Shown here: piece after piece, positions 2,027-15,755 of the stretch
How positions within the stretch are numbered: position 1 is the stretch's first letter
Layout: each line of letters opens with the position of its first letter
The notes under the pieces: generated by a model
What the model was told of the DNA's origin: nothing
What the model saw: only the letters and a program-made list of their open reading frames with translations
The model's database searches: none
Made by a program: the position numbers and the translations under genes
NCBI GenBank assembly: GCA_025996865.1
Contig: BNTV01000109.1
Span: forward strand, 1 to 15,755
Length of the DNA stretch: 15,755 bases
Source: Bacteroidia bacterium
GTDB lineage: Bacteria > Bacteroidota > Bacteroidia > Bacteroidales > Azobacteroidaceae
Direction: 5' to 3'

Positions 2027-3538
2027 ATGGATAATTATATTGTTTCGGCGAGAAAGTATCGTCCTTCCACTTTTCAGTCGGTGGTTGGTCAAAAATCATT
2101 GACTACTACGCTTAAAAATGCGATTATCAACAATAAATTGGCGCATGCTTATTTGTTTTGTGGTCCGCGCGGGGTCGGGAAGACCACTTGTGCGCGCATT
2201 TTTGCCAAGACCATCAATTGTTTTCACCCAACGCCGGAAGGCGAAGCCTGTAATGAATGTGAATCTTGCTGTTCGTTCAATGAAAACCGTTCGCTGAACA
2301 TTCACGAGTTGGATGCAGCGTCGAACAATTCGGTCGATGACATCCGCGCGTTGACCGAGCAAGTGCGTATTATGCCTCAACTGGGGAAATACAAAGTGTA
2401 TATCATCGACGAGGTACACATGCTCACTCAGTCTGCTTTCAACGCTTTTTTGAAGACTCTGGAAGAGCCGCCTCATCATGCCGTTTTTATTTTGGCGACT
2501 ACCGAAAAACATAAAATTCTGCCGACCATTCTTTCGCGTTGCCAGATTTACGATTTTAGTCGAATCGGTATCAATGACATTGTTGATTATCTGGAATATG
2601 TTGCCAAACAGGAAAATATATCCTACGAACGGGAAGCGTTGAATATCATTGCACAAAAAGCCGATGGTGGAATGCGTGATGCCTTGTCGATTTTCGACCA
2701 GGTAGTCAGTTTTTCGCAAGGGAACGTAACTTACAAGACCGTAATTGATAACCTGAATGTCTTGGATTACGATTATTATTTCCGCATAACGGACGCCATT
2801 TTGCAGAACAATGTTGCCCAATGCCTGTTGCTGCTGAATGAAATTTTGAGTAAAGGCTTTGACGGACAGCATATTATCAGTGGTTTGGCTTTGTTCTTGC
2901 GGGATTTATTGGTTTGCAAAGATCCGCAAACGATTGTTTTGTTTGAGGTAGGTGATGCCGTCAAAGAGAAATACCTTGAGTTGGCGCGTCGCTGCGAAGC
3001 GCCTTTCTTGTACAAAGCCATGGAGCTGACGAATGAAACGGATTTGAGCTACCGGTACAGCAAGAATAAACGGTTTGCGATTGAATTGCTGCTCATTCGG
3101 CTTTGTCAGGTGAAGGCTTCTCCCGAGGAAGGCGATAAAAAAAAAATTGTAATTGAAGCGATTGGTGGGAAAAATGAGAGTAAAGAGGAAAATTTTAAGG
3201 ATTTTGAAAATCTTAATGACTCTAAGACCGTTACCCAAACAAATAATATTCCAAAAGTTTCTAATGAGAATAGCCTTTTAGTAAAACCAATCGCTCGCGT
3301 AAGGCTCAACGGTGATCCGGAACAAGCGAGCAAGCCTGAAACGGGTTCTTCACAAGCTGAAAACCCGACTCAAACGGATCCTTCCTGGGAAGACAGGGTC
3401 AAGTCATGGAAAGAGGATGCGAATCAAAAAGACCATACACAAACATTATTTACCGATAAGGAAAAATATTTGTATATGGTCGATAAGAATCCGAGTCTAA
3501 AAGACTTGGTGAAAGAATTTAATCTCCGTTTAGACTAA
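2027..3538 (+). CDS. dnaX: DNA polymerase III subunit gamma/tau
   Basis: This is the AAA+ motor of the clamp loader, which loads the sliding clamp at the replication fork. The 503-residue protein shows the family order: RPSTFQSVVGQ near 12-22, Walker A GPRGVGKT at 46-53, a zinc-binding cysteine set (C65, C75, C78, C81), Walker B YIIDEVH at 125-131, sensor-1 ATTE at 157-160 and SRC near 170-172. The AAA+ and lid/collar regions run to about residue 365. A charged, low-complexity linker (about 370-465) leads to a short conserved-looking tail, KDLVKEFNLRLD. It is somewhat shorter than many tau proteins. The last 35 codons plus downstream sequence are repeated almost perfectly at 4361-4497. The stop codon would have overlapped the convergent palmitoyltransferase gene before the cassette between them arrived. 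Confidence 0.96.
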   Translation: MDNYIVSARKYRPSTFQSVVGQKSLTTTLKNAIINNKLAHAYLFCGPRGVGKTTCARIFAKTINCFHPTPEGEACNECESCCSFNENRSLNIHELDAASNNSVDDIRALTEQVRIMPQLGKYKVYIIDEVHMLTQSAFNAFLKTLEEPPHHAVFILATTEKHKILPTILSRCQIYDFSRIGINDIVDYLEYVAKQENISYEREALNIIAQKADGGMRDALSIFDQVVSFSQGNVTYKTVIDNLNVLDYDYYFRITDAILQNNVAQCLLLLNEILSKGFDGQHIISGLALFLRDLLVCKDPQTIVLFEVGDAVKEKYLELARRCEAPFLYKAMELTNETDLSYRYSKNKRFAIELLLIRLCQVKASPEEGDKKKIVIEAIGGKNESKEENFKDFENLNDSKTVTQTNNIPKVSNENSLLVKPIARVRLNGDPEQASKPETGSSQAENPTQTDPSWEDRVKSWKEDANQKDHTQTLFTDKEKYLYMVDKNPSLKDLVKEFNLRLD

Positions 3539-3568
3539 CATTTTTTGTAAAGCGTCCACTTTGATCAG
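3432..3568 (+). repeat. 137-bp direct repeat, copy 1 (dnaX tail)
   Basis: This contains the last 35 codons of the intact dnaX, its stop, and 30 bases that on the minus strand read as the palmitoyltransferase C-terminus (VDALQKMLV). It matches 4361-4497 at a constant offset of 929, with one difference (T3475 versus C4404, a silent TAT/TAC change in dnaX). After 3568 there are 17 bases not present in copy 2, then 11 more matching bases (ACTTTTTTCTA at 3586-3596 and 4498-4508). The duplicated block was therefore at least 148 bp. Confidence 0.97.
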
Positions 3569-3593
3569 CGTTTGCCAAAGTAAATACTTTTTT
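3558..3593 (+). terminator. possible dnaX terminator hairpin
   Basis: ACTTTG (3558-3563) and CAAAGT (3576-3581) are perfect inverted arms around 12 bases, followed after a short AT gap by a T6 run (3588-3593). The second arm lies within the 17 bases unique to copy 1, so the hairpin exists only on the dnaX side. Six base pairs, mostly A-T, make it weak. Confidence 0.35.
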
Positions 3594-3598
3594 CTACA

Positions 3599-3631
3599 TT
3601 GACTATATGAATGAAAAAATAATTATCTTTG
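3599..3631 (+). promoter_or_regulatory. promoter of the toxin-antitoxin operon
   Basis: TATCTTTG at 3624-3631 is a good -7 box (TAnnTTTG). TTG at 3599-3601 lies 22 bases upstream as a partial -33 element. The antitoxin ATG follows 26 bases later. It lies inside the inserted cassette, so the cassette brings its own promoter. Confidence 0.5.
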
Positions 3632-3657
3632 TATATGAAATTTTAAAATAAAATCCG

Positions 3658-3915
3658 ATGCAAGCATATAAACTGAATACATATATTTCCAATGATGGCG
3701 TAATTTTGCTGCCTTCCTTTCCTGATTTGTATAATAAAAAAGTGGAATTAATTATTCTTCCCATAGAAGAACAAACAAAAAGTAAGATAAAAGAAGAAGA
3801 AAGCAACTATACAACTTTGGATTTTATAAATGAGTTTTCAGGCATTTTGAAAGGTCTGAACGACCAAGATGTTGAAAATGCCAAATACGAAAGATTAAAA
3901 AAGAAATATTTGTAG
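3658..3915 (+). CDS. VapB-like antitoxin (85 aa)
   Basis: This small protein is the first gene of a two-gene operon whose second gene is a PIN-domain toxin; its role is to bind and neutralise the toxin and repress the operon. Its N-terminal part (VILLPSFPDLYNKKVELIIL, then PIEE) resembles the DNA-binding half of Bacteroidetes antitoxins paired with PIN toxins. The C-terminal part (FSGILKG, then NDQDVENAKYERLKKKYL) is the helix-rich, charged toxin-binding tail. The TAG stop overlaps a possible GTG start of the toxin by one base. The VELIILPI segment recurs as VEVIVLPI in the orphan antitoxin at 13911-14141. The call rests on position, size and tail pattern. Confidence 0.75.
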   Translation: MQAYKLNTYISNDGVILLPSFPDLYNKKVELIILPIEEQTKSKIKEEESNYTTLDFINEFSGILKGLNDQDVENAKYERLKKKYL

Positions 3916-3917
3916 TG

Positions 3918-4334
3918 ATGAAAGTACTGATAGATACAAATATCATCATGGACATTGCATTGGAAAGATCCCCGTTTTATAATCATGCAATAATCCTCTT
4001 TCAGAAAATTCATGACAAACAATTACAAGGGAGTATTTCAGCTTCTACCGTTACAGATATTTTCTACTTGGTACAGAGAGAAAAAGGCAGACAAACTGCT
4101 ACCTGCTTTTTAAAGAAATTAATCAAAGTAATAGATATTATAGGAGTTGACAAAGATACGATTGTGAATGCTTTACAATTAGAATGGAATGATTTTGAAG
4201 ATGCGGTTCAAGCGCAAGTTGCTTTAGAAAACGAAATAGATATTATCATAACAAGAAATGCAAAAGATTTTCAGGAGATTAAAAATATAAAGGTTTTTTC
4301 TCCTGTTGATTTCATCAATTTTTTGCCTTCATGA
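3918..4334 (+). CDS. PIN-domain RNase toxin, VapC-like
   Basis: PIN toxins are Mg2+-dependent ribonucleases that stop growth by cutting specific RNAs when the antitoxin is lost. The 138-residue protein opens with MKVLIDTNIIMD, the first catalytic Asp motif. It continues with SASTVTDIFYL, the acidic WNDFEDAVQAQVA helix, and IITRNAKDF carrying the last conserved Asp. All expected acidic positions are present, so it is likely active. I chose the ATG at 3918, two bases after the antitoxin stop; GTG at 3915 would overlap that stop and is also possible. The gene ends 26 bases before copy 2 of the dnaX-tail repeat, so the pair fills the duplicated interval. Confidence 0.85.
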   Translation: MKVLIDTNIIMDIALERSPFYNHAIILFQKIHDKQLQGSISASTVTDIFYLVQREKGRQTATCFLKKLIKVIDIIGVDKDTIVNALQLEWNDFEDAVQAQVALENEIDIIITRNAKDFQEIKNIKVFSPVDFINFLPS

Positions 4335-4360
4335 TAAAGAAAATCCATTAAAAGAAAAAA

Positions 4361-4497
4361 ACCATACACAAACATTATTTACCGATAAGGAAAAATATTT
4401 GTACATGGTCGATAAGAATCCGAGTCTAAAAGACTTGGTGAAAGAATTTAATCTCCGTTTAGACTAACATTTTTTGTAAAGCGTCCACTTTGATCAG
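4361..4497 (+). repeat. 137-bp direct repeat, copy 2 (relic dnaX tail)
   Basis: This near-identical second copy of 3432-3568 still reads as the dnaX C-terminus in an open frame ending at TAA 4465-4467, but has no start or upstream gene body. Its right part is the true 3' end of the serine palmitoyltransferase gene, which stops at 4459, so the relic dnaX stop and the palmitoyltransferase stop overlap by 9 bases. Only one substitution separates the copies, although this one no longer codes for DnaX, which points to a recent duplication or ongoing gene conversion. Confidence 0.97.
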
Positions 4498-5658
4498 ACT
4501 TTTTTCTATTTTCTCCATTGCTTGGTCTAATTGGTCGAAAGTGTGCGTCGCCATTAAAGAGAAACGAATCAAAGTATCACTTGGAGCTACTGCGGGAGAA
4601 ACTACCGGATTAACGAAGATTCCTTGTTCGAACAAATCACGTGTAATATAGAACGTTTTGTCATTATCCCTGATAAATATCGGTATAATCGGCGTAGAGG
4701 TATTTCCGATTTCACAACCCATCTCGCGGAAACCTTTCAAGGCGTAATCGGTCAGTTTCCACAAATTTTCGATTCGTTCAGGTTCGCTCACCATAATATC
4801 AAAAGCGGCATTGGCTGCAGCTATGGCTGCCGGCGTGCTGCTCGCACTGAAAATGTAAGAACGTGAATTGTGTCGTAAATAATTGATTACCGGATCGGAA
4901 GCTGCAATAAATCCGCCTATCGAAGCCAATGATTTACTGAAAGTTCCCATGACTAAATCAATATCGGGCATTACATTGAAATAGTCGCACGTACCGCGTC
5001 CCTGACGGCCTAAGACGCCTAATCCGTGGGCTTCGTCAACCATGACGTTGGCATTGTATTTTCGTGCTAACCGGGTGATTTCGGGGAGATTGGAAATATC
5101 TCCTTCCATGCTGAAAACACCATCGACAACAATCAGTTTGATTTTATCGGGAGTACATTTCATCAACTGTTTTTCCAGTGATTCCATGTCGTTGTGACGG
5201 AATTTCAACTTTTGAGAGTAAGATACACGGTGGCCTTCGATAATAGATGCATGGTCTAATTCATCCCATAAAATAAAATCTTCACGACCGGTAAGACATG
5301 ATACCACACCTTCATTAACCTGAAACCCTGTTGAATAAATCATTGCATCGTCTTTTCCAACAAAATCGGCTAATTTTTTTTCAAACTCTACGTGGATATC
5401 TAATGTCCCATTGAGGTGTCGGCTGCCCGCCATTCCCGTCCCGTATTTTTTAGTGGCGGCGATGGCTGCTTCTTTGACCTTCGGATGGTTTGTCAGTCCT
5501 AAATAAGAATTAGAACCGAACATTAAAACCTTTCTACCGTTAATTATTACTTCCGTATCCTGATCGCTTTGAATCACTTTTGAATAGGGATACAGGCCTG
5601 CGGCTTTCGCTCTTTGTGGAATATCGTACTTCCTCAGTTTCTCAACAAGAAGGTTCAT
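4459..5658 (-). CDS. spt: serine palmitoyltransferase-like alpha-oxoamine synthase
   Basis: This PLP enzyme joins L-serine and palmitoyl-CoA to 3-ketosphinganine, the first step of sphingolipid synthesis, in the cytoplasm. The 399-residue protein has the family's landmarks: H136 in DELDHAS (stacks on PLP), VDEAHGLGVLG with D208 and H211, and the Schiff-base Lys in GTFSKSLASIGGF (K242). The N-terminus (LLVEKLRKYDIPQRAKAAGLY) and the FGSNSYLGLT segment are, from memory, close to the Bacteroides serine palmitoyltransferase. The related glycine C-acetyltransferase (kbl) is the main alternative. Its 3' end lies in repeat copy 2. A TATCTTTG box lies about 90 bases upstream, so it has its own promoter and a fairly long leader. 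Confidence 0.82.
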   Translation of the reverse strand: MNLLVEKLRKYDIPQRAKAAGLYPYSKVIQSDQDTEVIINGRKVLMFGSNSYLGLTNHPKVKEAAIAATKKYGTGMAGSRHLNGTLDIHVEFEKKLADFVGKDDAMIYSTGFQVNEGVVSCLTGREDFILWDELDHASIIEGHRVSYSQKLKFRHNDMESLEKQLMKCTPDKIKLIVVDGVFSMEGDISNLPEITRLARKYNANVMVDEAHGLGVLGRQGRGTCDYFNVMPDIDLVMGTFSKSLASIGGFIAASDPVINYLRHNSRSYIFSASSTPAAIAAANAAFDIMVSEPERIENLWKLTDYALKGFREMGCEIGNTSTPIIPIFIRDNDKTFYITRDLFEQGIFVNPVVSPAVAPSDTLIRFSLMATHTFDQLDQAMEKIEKSLIKVDALQKMLV

Positions 5659-7019: not shown

Positions 7020-7163
7020 AATGAAATTTTCCAAATCACACATGAACGAGTGAAAATTGCCGGGTTGTATTTTACTCACTTTTTCGAGTAATTTACAACC
7101 AAAATGAGTAGAATATCCGGAGAAATATGCTTTACTTTGCAAAAAAAATTTGATTAAAAAAGA

Positions 7164-7971
7164 TGAAAACTCAGACAATCATTACGCTGCTGTTCTCATG
7201 CGGAACCCTGTAATTACCTCCCCCGCGACAGTGACCTGCGCCTACACACCCGCCATCCCCACAGGGACGTATCCCATCACCGTATCGGGCGCAGTCCTGC
7301 AAGCAAGCGCAGTTGGCGACAAGGGATAACTACGAGATAGCTTCTTATGTGAGCGGTACGCTGACGGTAACGCCCCTCGTGCCGCCAACATTCGGCGTAA
7401 GCATTGGCACATTATCCAACGGCAGCGTCTCGGCAAGCCCGAACGCAAATATCACGGCAGGCGAAACGGTTACACTGACTGTCACGCCCGATGCAGGTTA
7501 CGAATTGGACAACATCACGGTAACAGGCAGCGGCGGCGCCGTAGAGACGCGATTAATCGCGTCTCTACAAACGTACACATTTGTGATGCCCGCATCCGGT
7601 GTAACCGTTAATGCAACATTCAAAAAAACGCAGGCGCAATTGGACAGGGAATCCGTCGAAGCAGCCAGGGCAGCCATCGAAGGCGGAACGTTCCGCGTGG
7701 CAATGTCGACGGCAAACGATGCAGCAGGTATTAAAACATGGCTGGCGGGTACACTGAACGTCCGCAGGCCAAAGCCCTGAAAGCCTACGTACAAAACGGT
7801 ACGCTGCACGTCGGTGGCCTGACCGCAGGCAAGCAGTGGGCGGTATATAACCTTTCGGGTGCATTGGTGTATCAAGGCATTGCAAGCGGCGATGAGGCGG
7901 ATGTGCCCCTGTCTGTTCGAGGCGTGTATATTGTTAAGTCAGGCAGTAAAACGATTAAAGTCGTGTACTGA
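7164..7971 (+). pseudogene. decayed MBG/T9SS-sorted surface protein
   Basis: Remnants of a large secreted protein lie in changing frames. The ATG at 7164 starts a signal-peptide-like leader (MKTQTIITLLFSCGTL) that stops at once. Another frame (7198-7329) holds an MBG-type piece, TPAIPTGTYPITVSGAV, ending at a TAA. A third frame (7313-7780) resumes with DNYEIASYVSGTLTV and a bacterial beta-repeat (GYELDNITVTG, YTFVMPASGVTVNATF). From about 7738 a further shift gives a T9SS type-A sorting tail (WAVYNLSGALVYQG, GVYIVKSG) ending at 7971. At least three frame changes and a missing middle show the gene is dead. Its GC content is above the neighbours', as expected of repeat-rich adhesin genes or acquired DNA. 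A 28-bp palindrome interrupts it. Confidence 0.8.
7541..7568 (+). repeat. perfect 28-bp palindrome inserted in coding sequence
   Basis: GTAGAGACGCGATT is followed immediately by its exact reverse complement. It lies between GSGGA and the TYTFVMP strand of the beta-repeat and adds residues ETRLIASL without breaking that frame. Similar GTAGAGACG...CGTCTCTAC palindromes are, from memory, dispersed in many copies in some bacterial genomes, notably cyanobacteria. Confidence 0.9.
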
Positions 7972-12912: not shown

Positions 12913-12937
12913 TTGATTTGATGCGTCAAATATTTTA
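12913..12937 (+). repeat. 25-bp direct repeat, copy A
   Basis: Perfectly identical to 14294-14318. It contains the inverted repeat TTTGA-TGCG-TCAAA. It lies between the tamB-like gene and the lipoprotein stop codon, seven bases beyond the latter. Confidence 0.93.
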
Positions 12938-12943
12938 TATTTT

Positions 12944-13921
12944 TCAGGGAAAGAGTTTGTATCTTAATAAATAATCTTCATAATAAGAATTACAACCGTA
13001 TATATATCCATTTTCTTCATCGACGACGAAATAAAAAGGAACTATATCAAAGGTATATTTTATTATGGGATTTCCTTCGTAATCATATACTTCTAATGTT
13101 CGATCTAAAAAATTATCATCTATTTTATGCCCAACATATATAACATAAAAATATTTTTTCCCGGCATAAATATTCAGATAATGGTATGTTATGTTTTTAT
13201 CGTCATATACTGTAACTTTAGGATATTTTTTGCCGTCATCAATTCTTTTTATAAGCTGAAAATTATCCACAGCATAAATGTCTATCTGTTTCTTATATAT
13301 GTAAGGATAAATTACGAATGAATCATTTGCAGCTATAAGTCCTCGGTTGGAATAATAATAAGATTCCTTGTGGTCTTCCTTTTTTAGATTGATTTTTTTC
13401 AATAGCATTTTATTTTTCAAATCATATTTTGTAATAGTAAGCCGGTCGCTGCTATAATATATGAATAAAGAATCCCTTATCAGGTTCATAAAATTATATT
13501 CATCATATCTATCTAATTTATATTCATCAATGAATGAGAAATTTCCCTGAGGCTGTATTAATATTTTTCGGATGGACAAGAGCGAGTATCCCCTTACATA
13601 TAAATACTTATTGTCTGACGTATGGCAAAACATAGGAAATGTTTGAATTTCGTCAGGACCACCTCCTTTTATTCCCGTAGCGTTCTTAAATCCCAACGAA
13701 GGAGTTTCGTATAAAAATAAAGTCGTATCAGTTTTAGAACTTGAAATGATAAAATAATTTCCTGATTTGGTTACAAAATCAACGGAAAATACTTCGTTTA
13801 CAGGAATTTTTTCGGCATATAACTCTTTTCTTTCACGAAAAAATGTTCCGTTCACCCGAGGTTTGGAACACGAATACAACCCGACAACAGTTAATAATAT
13901 ATATAACACTTTACAGTTCAT
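12944..13921 (-). CDS. BF3164-like 6-bladed beta-propeller lipoprotein
   Basis: The 325-residue protein from ATG 13921 starts with MNCKVLYILLTVVGLYSCSK, a lipoprotein signal with the acceptor Cys at 18. A longer frame to 13975 puts 18 polar residues before the signal and is unlikely. The mature part is strand-rich with propeller-like repeats (FLYETPSLGF, YLYVRGYSLLSI, LEVYDYEGNPIIKY, YFVVDEENGYIYG) and a GGGPDE segment typical of this Bacteroidetes family of TolB-like propellers. Exact function unknown; such proteins are cell-surface or periplasmic. Its start overlaps the upstream antitoxin-like gene by 11 bases, so translation of the two is probably coupled. Confidence 0.7.
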   Translation of the reverse strand: MNCKVLYILLTVVGLYSCSKPRVNGTFFRERKELYAEKIPVNEVFSVDFVTKSGNYFIISSSKTDTTLFLYETPSLGFKNATGIKGGGPDEIQTFPMFCHTSDNKYLYVRGYSLLSIRKILIQPQGNFSFIDEYKLDRYDEYNFMNLIRDSLFIYYSSDRLTITKYDLKNKMLLKKINLKKEDHKESYYYSNRGLIAANDSFVIYPYIYKKQIDIYAVDNFQLIKRIDDGKKYPKVTVYDDKNITYHYLNIYAGKKYFYVIYVGHKIDDNFLDRTLEVYDYEGNPIIKYTFDIVPFYFVVDEENGYIYGCNSYYEDYLLRYKLFP

Positions 13922-14141
13922 CTGAATATAATTTGCTATCAACTTTTTCCTGAGCTGCCAGTGCTGTGTTTGCATACTGTTTCAAGTATCCCATCATTGA
14001 CTCGGCCGGTTTCGCTAAAGGAGTTGATGTTTTGATAGGTAATACAATCACCTCCACACGGGAGTCGCGCATTTCAATTGGGATATTCATCACGGGTATC
14101 AAACGTGCCGCGTCCATTATTTCGCTGTATGCATTCATCAT
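13911..14141 (-). CDS. orphan antitoxin-like protein (76 aa)
   Basis: A small protein beginning MMNAYSEIMDAARLIPVMNI, with IEMRDSRVEVIVLPI in the middle and a charged tail (AQEKVDSKLYSDEL). The VEVIVLPI stretch parallels VELIILPI of the VapB-like antitoxin at 3658-3915, and size and layout fit that class. No toxin gene follows: the next frame, overlapping its stop by 11 bases (ATGAACTGTAA), is the lipoprotein. It has its own TAACTTTG promoter box. Either the toxin was lost and replaced, or this is a regulator reused for the lipoprotein. Family call is by motif resemblance only. Confidence 0.55.
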   Translation of the reverse strand: MMNAYSEIMDAARLIPVMNIPIEMRDSRVEVIVLPIKTSTPLAKPAESMMGYLKQYANTALAAQEKVDSKLYSDEL

Positions 14142-14226: not shown

Positions 14227-14310
14227 TTAATTTTTCTCAACCCGAACCCGCGCATCCATAGCAACAATCCCATTCTCCGCAGCCAACAAAAGATTGATTT
14301 GATGCGTCAA
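14227..14310 (-). pseudogene. gene-end fragment, possibly acyl-CoA synthetase C-terminus
   Basis: A minus-strand open stretch of 27 codons ends INLLLAAENGIVAMDARVRV, then EKN and a stop at 14227. The pattern I-N-x-L-L-x-x-x-x-G-(I/V)-V-A-(M/L)-D-A-R resembles the last strands of ATP-grasp subunits of ADP-forming acetyl-CoA synthetases. No gene body precedes it: the homology-like part begins at the 25-bp repeat copy B, and beyond that lies the end of the methyltransferase gene. I read it as a truncated 3' end at a recombination joint. Confidence 0.35.
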
Positions 14311-14318
14311 ATATTTTA
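14294..14318 (+). repeat. 25-bp direct repeat, copy B
   Basis: Identical to 12913-12937 over all 25 bases; the flanking bases differ on both sides. It lies between the methyltransferase end and the gene-end fragment, so copies A and B bracket the lipoprotein/antitoxin pair. Confidence 0.93.
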
Positions 14319-14344: not shown

Positions 14345-15217
14345 TTACTTCCACCAAACAAAATTATCAGAAATGATAATCTCGGTTTTTTCCAAATGGT
14401 GCGTTGTTTTCATTGGAATTGTTCTATAAGGAAGATTATATGTCTCGGCCAGTTGTCGTATATCTGCCGTATTGTCGTATGTAAGCATAAACCGGCCTTT
14501 CAATCGGGCTGTTAAATCAAACAAACGTTCGTGGTCTATCTCTGAATGGGTATAAAGTCGTTTACCGGCAACGGTATAAGGTGGGTCAATGAAAAAATAA
14601 GCATTTTCGTTATTCAGGTTTTGCTCCATAATTTCAAAAGCGTCACCTTTGATAAAATTCATTTTTTCTTTCACTAGACTAATAGCAACAATTCTATCAT
14701 ACAATGTTTTAGGATACCATCTGGATGAAATTCCTCTCCCGTTTTCTCCATTTTTAATCATACCTGAACCTTTTGCAAGTATGCCTCCATGAAAAATCCG
14801 GTTTCTGAGAATGGTACAGAATGCAATGTCGTGTAACTGTTTGTCCGGTTTATTCAATTCATCTTTCACATTGTCGATTGTCAAATTGTAAGAAATTATT
14901 TTATCGGCAAGCCATTGGTTTTTTCCATTCAACATAACTTCCCAAACGGCAGCTATTTCTTCGTCTTTTTCAATCATTGTAATATGATTAGCCAATTTTT
15001 CAAATGCTGCGGTAAGGCTTACAATACCTCCCCCTACGAAAGGTTCAATTAATTCCGCAATTGGTTTGTTTTCTTGTTTGAGCCATTGCCGGACAGTAGG
15101 AATAAGCCATGTTTTTCCTCCCGGATAACGGAACGGACTCCGTTGTGGAACGGAAGCTACGTTGGTAATTGTAGTTTCAACGCATTCCTCGCCAAATAGA
15201 TTCATTTGATAACTCAT
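14345..15217 (-). CDS. D12-class (Dam-like) adenine-N6 DNA methyltransferase
   Basis: A 290-residue methyltransferase that transfers a methyl group from S-adenosylmethionine to adenine N6. Landmarks of the D12/alpha class in order: FRYPGGK at 29-35 (AdoMet-binding region), EPFVGGG at 58-64, and the catalytic FIDPPYT with DPPY at 211-214. The HGGILAKGSG and SRWYPKTLYDRI segments also fit the family. It overlaps the upstream nuclease gene by four bases (ATGA at 15214-15217), so the two form an operon and should act as modification and restriction partners. Recognition sequence cannot be read from the protein. Confidence 0.9.
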   Translation of the reverse strand: MSYQMNLFGEECVETTITNVASVPQRSPFRYPGGKTWLIPTVRQWLKQENKPIAELIEPFVGGGIVSLTAAFEKLANHITMIEKDEEIAAVWEVMLNGKNQWLADKIISYNLTIDNVKDELNKPDKQLHDIAFCTILRNRIFHGGILAKGSGMIKNGENGRGISSRWYPKTLYDRIVAISLVKEKMNFIKGDAFEIMEQNLNNENAYFFIDPPYTVAGKRLYTHSEIDHERLFDLTARLKGRFMLTYDNTADIRQLAETYNLPYRTIPMKTTHHLEKTEIIISDNFVWWK

Positions 15218-15755
15218 TCTATAACTACATTTTCAATATTGGAAACTCTCGAACGTTTGGCATCTAATCTCTTTTGCAATAATTGGGTAAAATCGCTTAT
15301 AGAGCCGGCTTCAAATTTAGCTATTTGCTCCAATGCGATGGTAAATTTTGTATAAACAATTCTTTTTAACTTTAAATCCAAGCGTTTTTCATTTTTTACA
15401 GGCTCTAAGTCATAGAGAAAAAATGCAAAATCAGCATCGGATTTATCAACCGTAGGTAGTGTGGGTAATGTGTCGTAAAAGGATGTTTGTAAAGCAACTG
15501 CTTGTTTCTTGTTCCATTGATTTAGAATTGAACCTTTAGCTATTATTTGAGGAATTAATCTTTTCTGTGATGATGAAAGATAATCGGGCTTCGGATATTT
15601 GAATGCCTGATTCCAATTGAAATTGGATGTAGAGTTTTCCAAATAAGAGATAAATGGGCCGGTCAAATTTCCGGAAATATAAACAGCCTGAACTTCAAGG
15701 GAACCAAAATCAAGTACCCTCCCTTTCTCATCGTAAGATACCAATACATAGTCAA
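15214..15755 (-). CDS. NotI-like restriction endonuclease, C-terminal part
   Basis: The frame is open to the window edge; what is visible is about the last 180 residues. It starts ...DYVLVSYDEKGRVLDFGSLE, then VQAVYISGNLTGPF. An acidic residue followed about 20 positions later by E-x-Q fits the PD-(D/E)xK-type catalytic core as I recall it in NotI, where Gln replaces the usual Lys. The rest (FAFFLYDL; KRLDLKLKRIVYTKFTIALE) is consistent with the family. The N-terminal part, where NotI carries its iron-cysteine site, is outside the window. The stop overlaps the methyltransferase start, supporting a type II restriction-modification pair. The apparent Met at 15744 would be a TTG inside the gene, so the CDS is treated as partial. 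Confidence 0.72.
   Translation of the reverse strand, partial: DYVLVSYDEKGRVLDFGSLEVQAVYISGNLTGPFISYLENSTSNFNWNQAFKYPKPDYLSSSQKRLIPQIIAKGSILNQWNKKQAVALQTSFYDTLPTLPTVDKSDADFAFFLYDLEPVKNEKRLDLKLKRIVYTKFTIALEQIAKFEAGSISDFTQLLQKRLDAKRSRVSNIENVVIE

Follow-up and report, generated by a model that had tools for sequence, protein, structure and literature searches.

A predicted toxin-antitoxin operon between duplicated copies of a dnaX/serine palmitoyltransferase gene junction in a Bacteroidales genome, a probable insertion with long target duplication

The window analysed here is the whole of contig C109 (15,755 bp) of a Bacteroidia genome assembly (G000; 5.42 Mb in 421 contigs, 88% complete), whose close protein relatives carry the names Candidatus Symbiothrix and Dysgonamonadaceae. 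Two convergent genes of this window, dnaX (DNA polymerase III gamma/tau; positions 2027 to 3538, positive strand) and the serine palmitoyltransferase gene spt (4459 to 5658, negative strand), are separated by a putative toxin-antitoxin (TA) operon that is bounded by a direct repeat, designated R, containing the 3′ ends of both. The repeat is 143 bp long with 141 identical positions, and its two copies lie on the positive strand at 3426 to 3568 and 4355 to 4497. The copies mismatch only at 3431/4360 and 3475/4404, and divergence begins after 3568/4497. The original prediction, which described 137 bp with 136 identical positions at a distance of 929 bp, corresponds to the 3432 to 3568 part of this repeat. 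A mechanical repeat search returned a 148-nt family with a start-to-start spacing of 929, the longest repeat reported in the window, and a search of the same genome with positions 3426 to 3573 matched only the two copies of R (32 of 32 candidates scored).

Each of the host genes is completed in a different copy of R. Copy 1 holds the functional end of dnaX (its last 113 bp) and a relic of the last spt codons; copy 2 holds a relic dnaX end and, on the complement, the functional last codons of spt, which is complete and matches the NCBIfam serine palmitoyltransferase family (3.7e-197). A relic open frame at 4306 to 4467 on the positive strand fuses the end of the cassette to the duplicated dnaX end. 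The relic dnaX stop at 4467 and the spt end at 4459 give a 9-bp overlap of the two frames, which is likewise present in the single junction of relatives L006 to L010, in agreement with the proposal that the host genes originally overlapped tail to tail. The sequence ACTTTTTTCTA stands directly after copy 2 and again 17 bases past copy 1, which may be the trace of a duplication that was once longer, or chance.

The inserted cassette, designated T, occupies 3569 to 4354 on the positive strand (786 bp) and has a G+C content of 29%, compared with 43.4% in dnaX and 42.5% in spt. It encodes a predicted PIN_3 toxin (3918 to 4334, positive strand, 138 amino acids, with an alternative GTG start at 3915) and, upstream of it on the same strand, an antitoxin-like protein of 85 amino acids (3658 to 3915), whose open reading frame (ORF) ends at 3915 and thus directly adjoins the toxin frame. 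The toxin matches Pfam PIN_3 (PF13470; 3.2e-22), and its structural model, built from an alignment of 26 sequences, reached a predicted local distance difference test (pLDDT) score of 93.7, with VapC proteins as the top structure matches (PDB, from 2.0e-6). The acidic PIN residues D12, D92, E94 and D95 are invariant across the 26 sequences. A VapBC-like identity of the toxin is sound, and the toxin and upstream ORF plausibly constitute a putative VapBC-like pair. The arrangement is that of type II VapBC systems in having a VapC-fold PIN toxin with a small gene directly upstream; what sets it apart from them is the antitoxin-like ORF, which matches no family in Pfam or NCBIfam and whose fold model (pLDDT 42) is unreliable and of no use. 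Related ORFs (40–58% identity over the matched part) are found upstream of the related PIN toxins of loci L035 to L039 and L081. In addition, a toxin (P0122, 85% identical) and an antitoxin (P0242, 82% identical), assigned to one contig by their identical listed length, occur on a JGI contig of 1211 bp.

A possible cassette promoter lies at 3599 to 3631 on the positive strand, with TTG at 3599 to 3601 and TATCTTTG at 3624 to 3631. Its TTG...TAnnTTTG pattern is one that we take to be the Bacteroides-type promoter motif, making it a candidate by motif reading; a sigma-70 promoter scan returned five sites against a shuffle mean of 5.5, which is no excess. The description of a VapBC-like pair with its own promoter therefore stands for the PIN/VapC-fold toxin and is reduced, for the promoter, to a motif reading with a sigma-70 scan at shuffle level. 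The only ORFs of more than 75 amino acids between the two copies of R are the antitoxin-like and toxin genes, and no integrase or transposase is present there, as had been stated. The terminal inverted repeats of the insert score 9, compared with a 95% shuffle mark of 11.

The unoccupied form of this junction is found in related genomes. A search for spt in 45 genomes of the family gave matches passing the cut-off in 41, and the 30 loci obtained from it include that of the window. Of the 29 relatives' loci fetched, 23 have dnaX beside spt and the remaining six have a different neighbour or scant sequence; a tblastn search (E up to 1e-3) found the toxin or antitoxin at none of the 29. R matches once in each of the seven relatives tested (L006 to L011, whose spt genes are the six closest, and L015), with 76–94% identity to copy 1. 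Since R is single in the relatives tested, no TA genes occur at the 29 loci and most of these have dnaX beside spt, the filled state is derived and R is host sequence; the cassette-free alleles with one junction copy that were to be looked for do exist. The two copies share 98.6% identity, compared with 93.6% identity to the nearest relative's junction, which indicates that the additional copy was either produced in place or derived from the same lineage. At position 3431 copy 1 agrees with the six nearest of the eight aligned relatives, and the other two, L012 and L015, have A like copy 2; at 3475 all eight share the base of copy 1. Both changes in copy 2 (4360 and 4404) fall within its dnaX portion, which is probably a relic that is free to drift.

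A survey of PIN loci was carried out with a repeat test requiring a direct repeat of at least 40 bp and at least 85% identity whose two copies flank the toxin. The loci were drawn from the window's own genome (E up to 1e-3), the family (1e-12) and the genus (PF13470, 1e-8), giving 35 distinct loci with up to 1.5 kb on each side and 12 listed places without a locus, or 47 in all; many loci in every set, including the controls, are cut by contig ends. Seven of the 47 are bounded by repeats (the window, L003, L004, L051, L067, L068 and L072), and in five of these seven the repeats were not seen dispersed. The same test was passed by none of 89 control loci, comprising spt (0/29), GNAT acetyltransferases (0/30) and N6/N4 methyltransferases (0/30), these sets being best-scoring hits with unmatched neighbourhoods. 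Fisher's test gives p = 0.0004 for 7/47 against 0/89 and p = 0.004 for the 5/47 that remain without L003 and L072. PIN operons are over-represented around such repeats within this survey, and other PIN/antitoxin pairs flanked by repeated gene ends or upstream regions, as the original prediction had suggested searching for, were thereby found.

Five further clean cases were recognised, in which the gene names that lack a family call were assigned by eye. In L051 (G007), an insert of 727 bp carrying antitoxin and toxin lies between two copies (93% identity) of the terminal 41 bp of a glycosyltransferase-like gene, and comparison with the locus of a relative supports the left one as the native end of that gene. 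L067 (G022) has a 55-bp repeat (98%) with an insert of 715 bp upstream of an aldo/keto reductase-like gene; here no R could be recognised upstream of the aldo/keto reductase genes of relatives, whose loci are uninformative as to an empty site. L004 (G000) has an 89-bp repeat (99%) and an insert of 1072 bp at the edge of a disrupted wecB-like gene. L141 (G015), which lies outside the genus PIN set, carries a ParE-family toxin in an insert of 673 bp between 41-bp repeats (98%), with one further match of R in G000. L280 (G060, from another family of the order) has a 55-bp repeat (98%) and an insert of 862 bp upstream of an SbcC-like gene. The targets of the clean cases comprise the ends of genes, stretches between genes and the edge of a pseudogene, and their R sequences are mutually unrelated where compared. 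Terminal inverted repeats fall under the 95% shuffle mark in five of the six inserts and equal it in L067, so that none is convincing. Only the window has documented empty sites among the clean cases.

Several other loci were considered around these cases. L113, in a nagB-like neighbourhood, was rejected as a clean case, the relatives showing no simple insertion and the gene end lying on the insert side. Repeat pairs occur at five of 30 ParE loci, among which L141 is clean and L151 has a pair of only 85% identity; L132, L149 and L154 were set aside as neighbouring ParE genes are listed there and probably constitute the repeats, and L132 and L149 overlap. Besides the clean L280, the order-level PIN loci with a pair comprise L287, in which gene starts resemble each other, L264 and L289, which seemed to be dispersed or rich in AT, and L262, L270, L274, L283 and L285. 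The toxin relatives L081 to L088 stand outside all counts; six of the eight have no repeat pair, and L085 has tandem repeats adjoining the toxin. In L088, on a Flavicella sediminum contig, a distant PIN toxin lies within a 62-bp pair (90%) that is part of a multi-copy repeat. L003 (contig C86 of G000) has its PIN toxin beside an Abi-like gene and contains two differing AraC-type C-terminal ends, one apparently a relic, as judged by eye.

It is fairly probable that the arrangement in the window arose by insertion, with long target duplication, of an AT-rich foreign TA operon at the dnaX/spt junction. Such an event would convert a host arrangement X-R-Y into X-R-T-R-Y, where R is the 143-bp junction and T a near-minimal TA operon of 786 bp. 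In outline this upholds the original prediction of an operon inserted at an ancestral single junction that was duplicated so that both host genes keep their ends, by a duplication much longer than that of a transposon target; the connection to the known mode of insertion with long target duplication was not drawn there. This mode was reportedly proposed for restriction-modification (RM) genes by Nobusato et al. in 2000 (Gene 259:99), and Furuta et al. 2010 is a further reference for it. Later papers describe its proposal for RM genes from Helicobacter pylori genomes (PMC1643837, PMC3031569, PMC2749054, PMC4978471), and according to a review of RM and TA systems the insertion of some RM systems is accompanied by target duplications that are long, on the order of 100 bp, and variable (PMC3874152). 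In the passages of that review consulted, such duplications are described for RM systems and not for TA systems, which are discussed for mobility generally (PMC3874152).

Compared with the RM inserts as outlined in those sources, the cases described here are alike in having direct repeats of about 100 bp and variable length (143 bp in the window and 41, 41, 55, 55 and 89 bp in the other clean cases), a target that is single in a relative (documented for the window) and a gene set of the toxin/antidote type. They are unlike them in that the insert is a PIN (or ParE) TA operon, the hosts are Bacteroidales and the insert is often barely longer than the operon. In Arabidopsis, according to one study, non-transposon genes at new places are flanked by direct repeats of more than 30 bp that often match the orthologous target in a relative, and its authors discuss both circle recombination and target duplication (PMC2869330); our cases differ in the bacterial host and the TA genes. 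The absence of a transposase and of inverted ends, together with a long rather than short duplication, separates the insert from transposons and insertion sequences. In a literature search judged mainly from search entries, with subscription papers mostly outside it, no such insertion was recognised for TA operons. These comparisons suggest that an insertion mode described for RM genes extends to TA genes.

The X-R-T-R-Y arrangement with a variable R, no shared ends and no enzyme fits a copying repair event. The insertion would be of an illegitimate, repair type, with a template switch as its likeliest form: synthesis would leave the host template after R, copy T from acquired DNA and rejoin the host at the start of R, with the A-run at the R border possibly serving as microhomology for the switch. 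A return further downstream would delete host DNA, and such products would damage genes and be lost, so that the duplicating class would remain. Inserts formed in this way may persist since the duplication preserves the ends of both neighbours, and recombination between the repeats that removed the insert would expose the cell to the toxin, resulting in retention by addiction. Addiction of this kind would explain why TA and RM gene sets are found in an unstable, repeat-bounded form.

Other routes lead to the same product, and we rank the copying route ahead of a Campbell-type circle and a staggered break. A circle carrying one R and T could recombine with a single chromosomal junction, as the original prediction had put forward; one crossover yields exactly X-R-T-R-Y, and repeats of 143 bp suffice for RecA to excise and re-insert such a cassette. 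For this, however, the circle must already carry the host gene ends, and with an R that varies by case each circle would need its own piece of host DNA; moreover, each copy resembles the other more closely than it does the junction of any of the seven relatives tested. No direct support for the circle was obtained, with no attachment site shared across the R sequences, and the plasmid, phage and viral collections were not searched for one. An origin by this route is accordingly regarded as unlikely, and the same route could also spread an already formed cassette among cells of one lineage. Capture at a staggered break, where nicks about 143 nt apart are joined to T and the overhangs filled in, is similarly doubtful: it accounts for the product and for the variable R (41–143 bp in the clean cases), but it requires single-stranded overhangs of 41–143 nt without a known enzyme, and T has no convincing terminal motif.

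Site-specific integration was also considered, the repeats being then the attL and attR sites of a remnant or trans-mobilised integrative element that restores a gene end. Integrase-driven islands can indeed restore the 3′ end of a gene, and many of those listed for Acidithiobacillus caldus at transfer RNA (tRNA) genes have repeats of about 45–77 bp, with the duplicated gene end keeping the host gene whole as it does here (PMC3826726). Those islands contain a whole or fragmentary integrase, unlike the interval between the repeats of the window, and no common core was seen among the R sequences. Furthermore, five of the six clean inserts are only 673–862 bp long with little beyond the TA genes, and the targets are the junction of two protein genes in the window and intergenic in others, so that we consider such an element very improbable. 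Least credible of all is an assembly or binning artefact; the contig is only 15,755 bp long in a fragmented and incomplete genome (421 contigs, 88% complete), but the copies mismatch at two positions and stand in distinct flanks, and the same architecture occurs in other genomes.

A number of points weigh against insertion of TA operons with long target duplication by the copying route. Microhomology is unmeasurable without a donor of T and its flanks, which leaves the copying step inferred, and addiction is likewise deduced from a toxin whose activity is a prediction. The repeat thresholds were chosen after the first cases had appeared; L003 and L004 derive from the looser own-genome search alone, the repeats of L003 and L072 are dispersed or palindromic, and the toxin frame of L068 contains a stop. 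The closest family relatives of the toxin that were fetched (L035 to L040 and L002) have no flanking repeats. The N6/N4 methyltransferase loci of the genus, an analogue of RM systems, gave 0/30, unlike the published link of such insertions to RM genes, and at the level of the order nine of 29 PIN loci have a pair of at least 40 bp, only one being clean (L280), in a set without controls. Two-copy repeat pairs of 40–400 bp, judged as such within each 400-kb sample, also number 11 in 800 kb of G000, several of them not around TA genes, and three in 400 kb each of G011 and G038. Examples in G000 are a 58-bp identical pair around a non-TA gene with an insert of 1228 bp (L125) and a 58-bp pair (93%) with an insert of 1760 bp (L116). 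Because the repeat pairs of G000 also surround other genes, the process is not TA-specific.

If long target duplication is nonetheless the correct explanation, bare TA operons may travel by the target-duplicating route described for RM genes, and the duplication may let them settle beside essential genes; both kinds of addiction gene would then be united under one entry mechanism. Clean inserts of this kind, one of them with documented empty sites, make it testable how small TA operons transfer between chromosomes without a mobility gene. It is a rather speculative further idea that the long duplication turns a bare TA operon into a self-contained mobile unit. Were this so, host recombination would excise an R-T circle scarlessly and reinsert it in any cell with the same junction, the toxin would punish its loss, and TA operons would rank with the smallest mobile elements, lacking any mobility gene and building an attachment site from the gene end at which they land.

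The preservation of both host genes, as originally described, holds for spt but not in full for dnaX, which is about 64 residues short of most relatives examined. The missing stretch lies just before the last 35 residues, where KSWKEDANQK is joined directly to DHTQTLF within a few bases of the left R border, and corresponds to a C-terminal domain that precomputed domain lists give as PF28557. A metagenome protein on a JGI contig of 42.8 kb (P0002) has the identical join, ANQKDHTQ, and PF28557 is also missing in the metagenome alleles P0004, P0016, P0018 and P0020. The domain loss is probably older than the insertion because P0002 shares the join and the other alleles lack the domain, and a deletion accompanying the insertion was dropped on the same grounds. 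The nearness of the join to the R border is left as a coincidence or a shared A-run. The absence of PF28557 from several alleles perhaps reflects repeated loss of a replisome domain.

Other features of the window were noted during the analysis. A region of the complement at about 175 to 215 resembles the 3′ end of a transfer-messenger RNA in its T-arm motif; ARAGORN and Rfam at gathering thresholds gave no match. Three overlapping short frames at 7150 to 7971 resemble a broken surface protein, and a palindrome at about 7543 to 7570, GTAGAGACGCGA...TCGCGTCTCTAC, belongs to a dispersed repeat that is also present in L003 and L125. Identical 25-bp direct repeats at 12913 to 12937 and 14294 to 14318 enclose about 1.36 kb, possibly an insert with a shorter duplication, and contain a gene of 343 amino acids (12944 to 13975) and an antitoxin-like ORF on the complement (13914 to 14141) that was recognised by eye, has no family match and has no PIN toxin seen beside it. 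From 14345 to 15744, at the contig end, a D12-class adenine methyltransferase lies beside a fragment of a NotI-type restriction endonuclease, together an RM pair. Elsewhere, a repetitive extragenic palindromic (REP)-type transposase-like ORF, identified by eye, lies between 251-bp repeats of a different kind in L118. In L110 (positions 2598 to 3350, contig C2 of G000), a 180-bp repeat of 97% identity contains the start of a dapA-like gene, and an endonuclease-like ORF, also recognised by eye, gains the same first residues.

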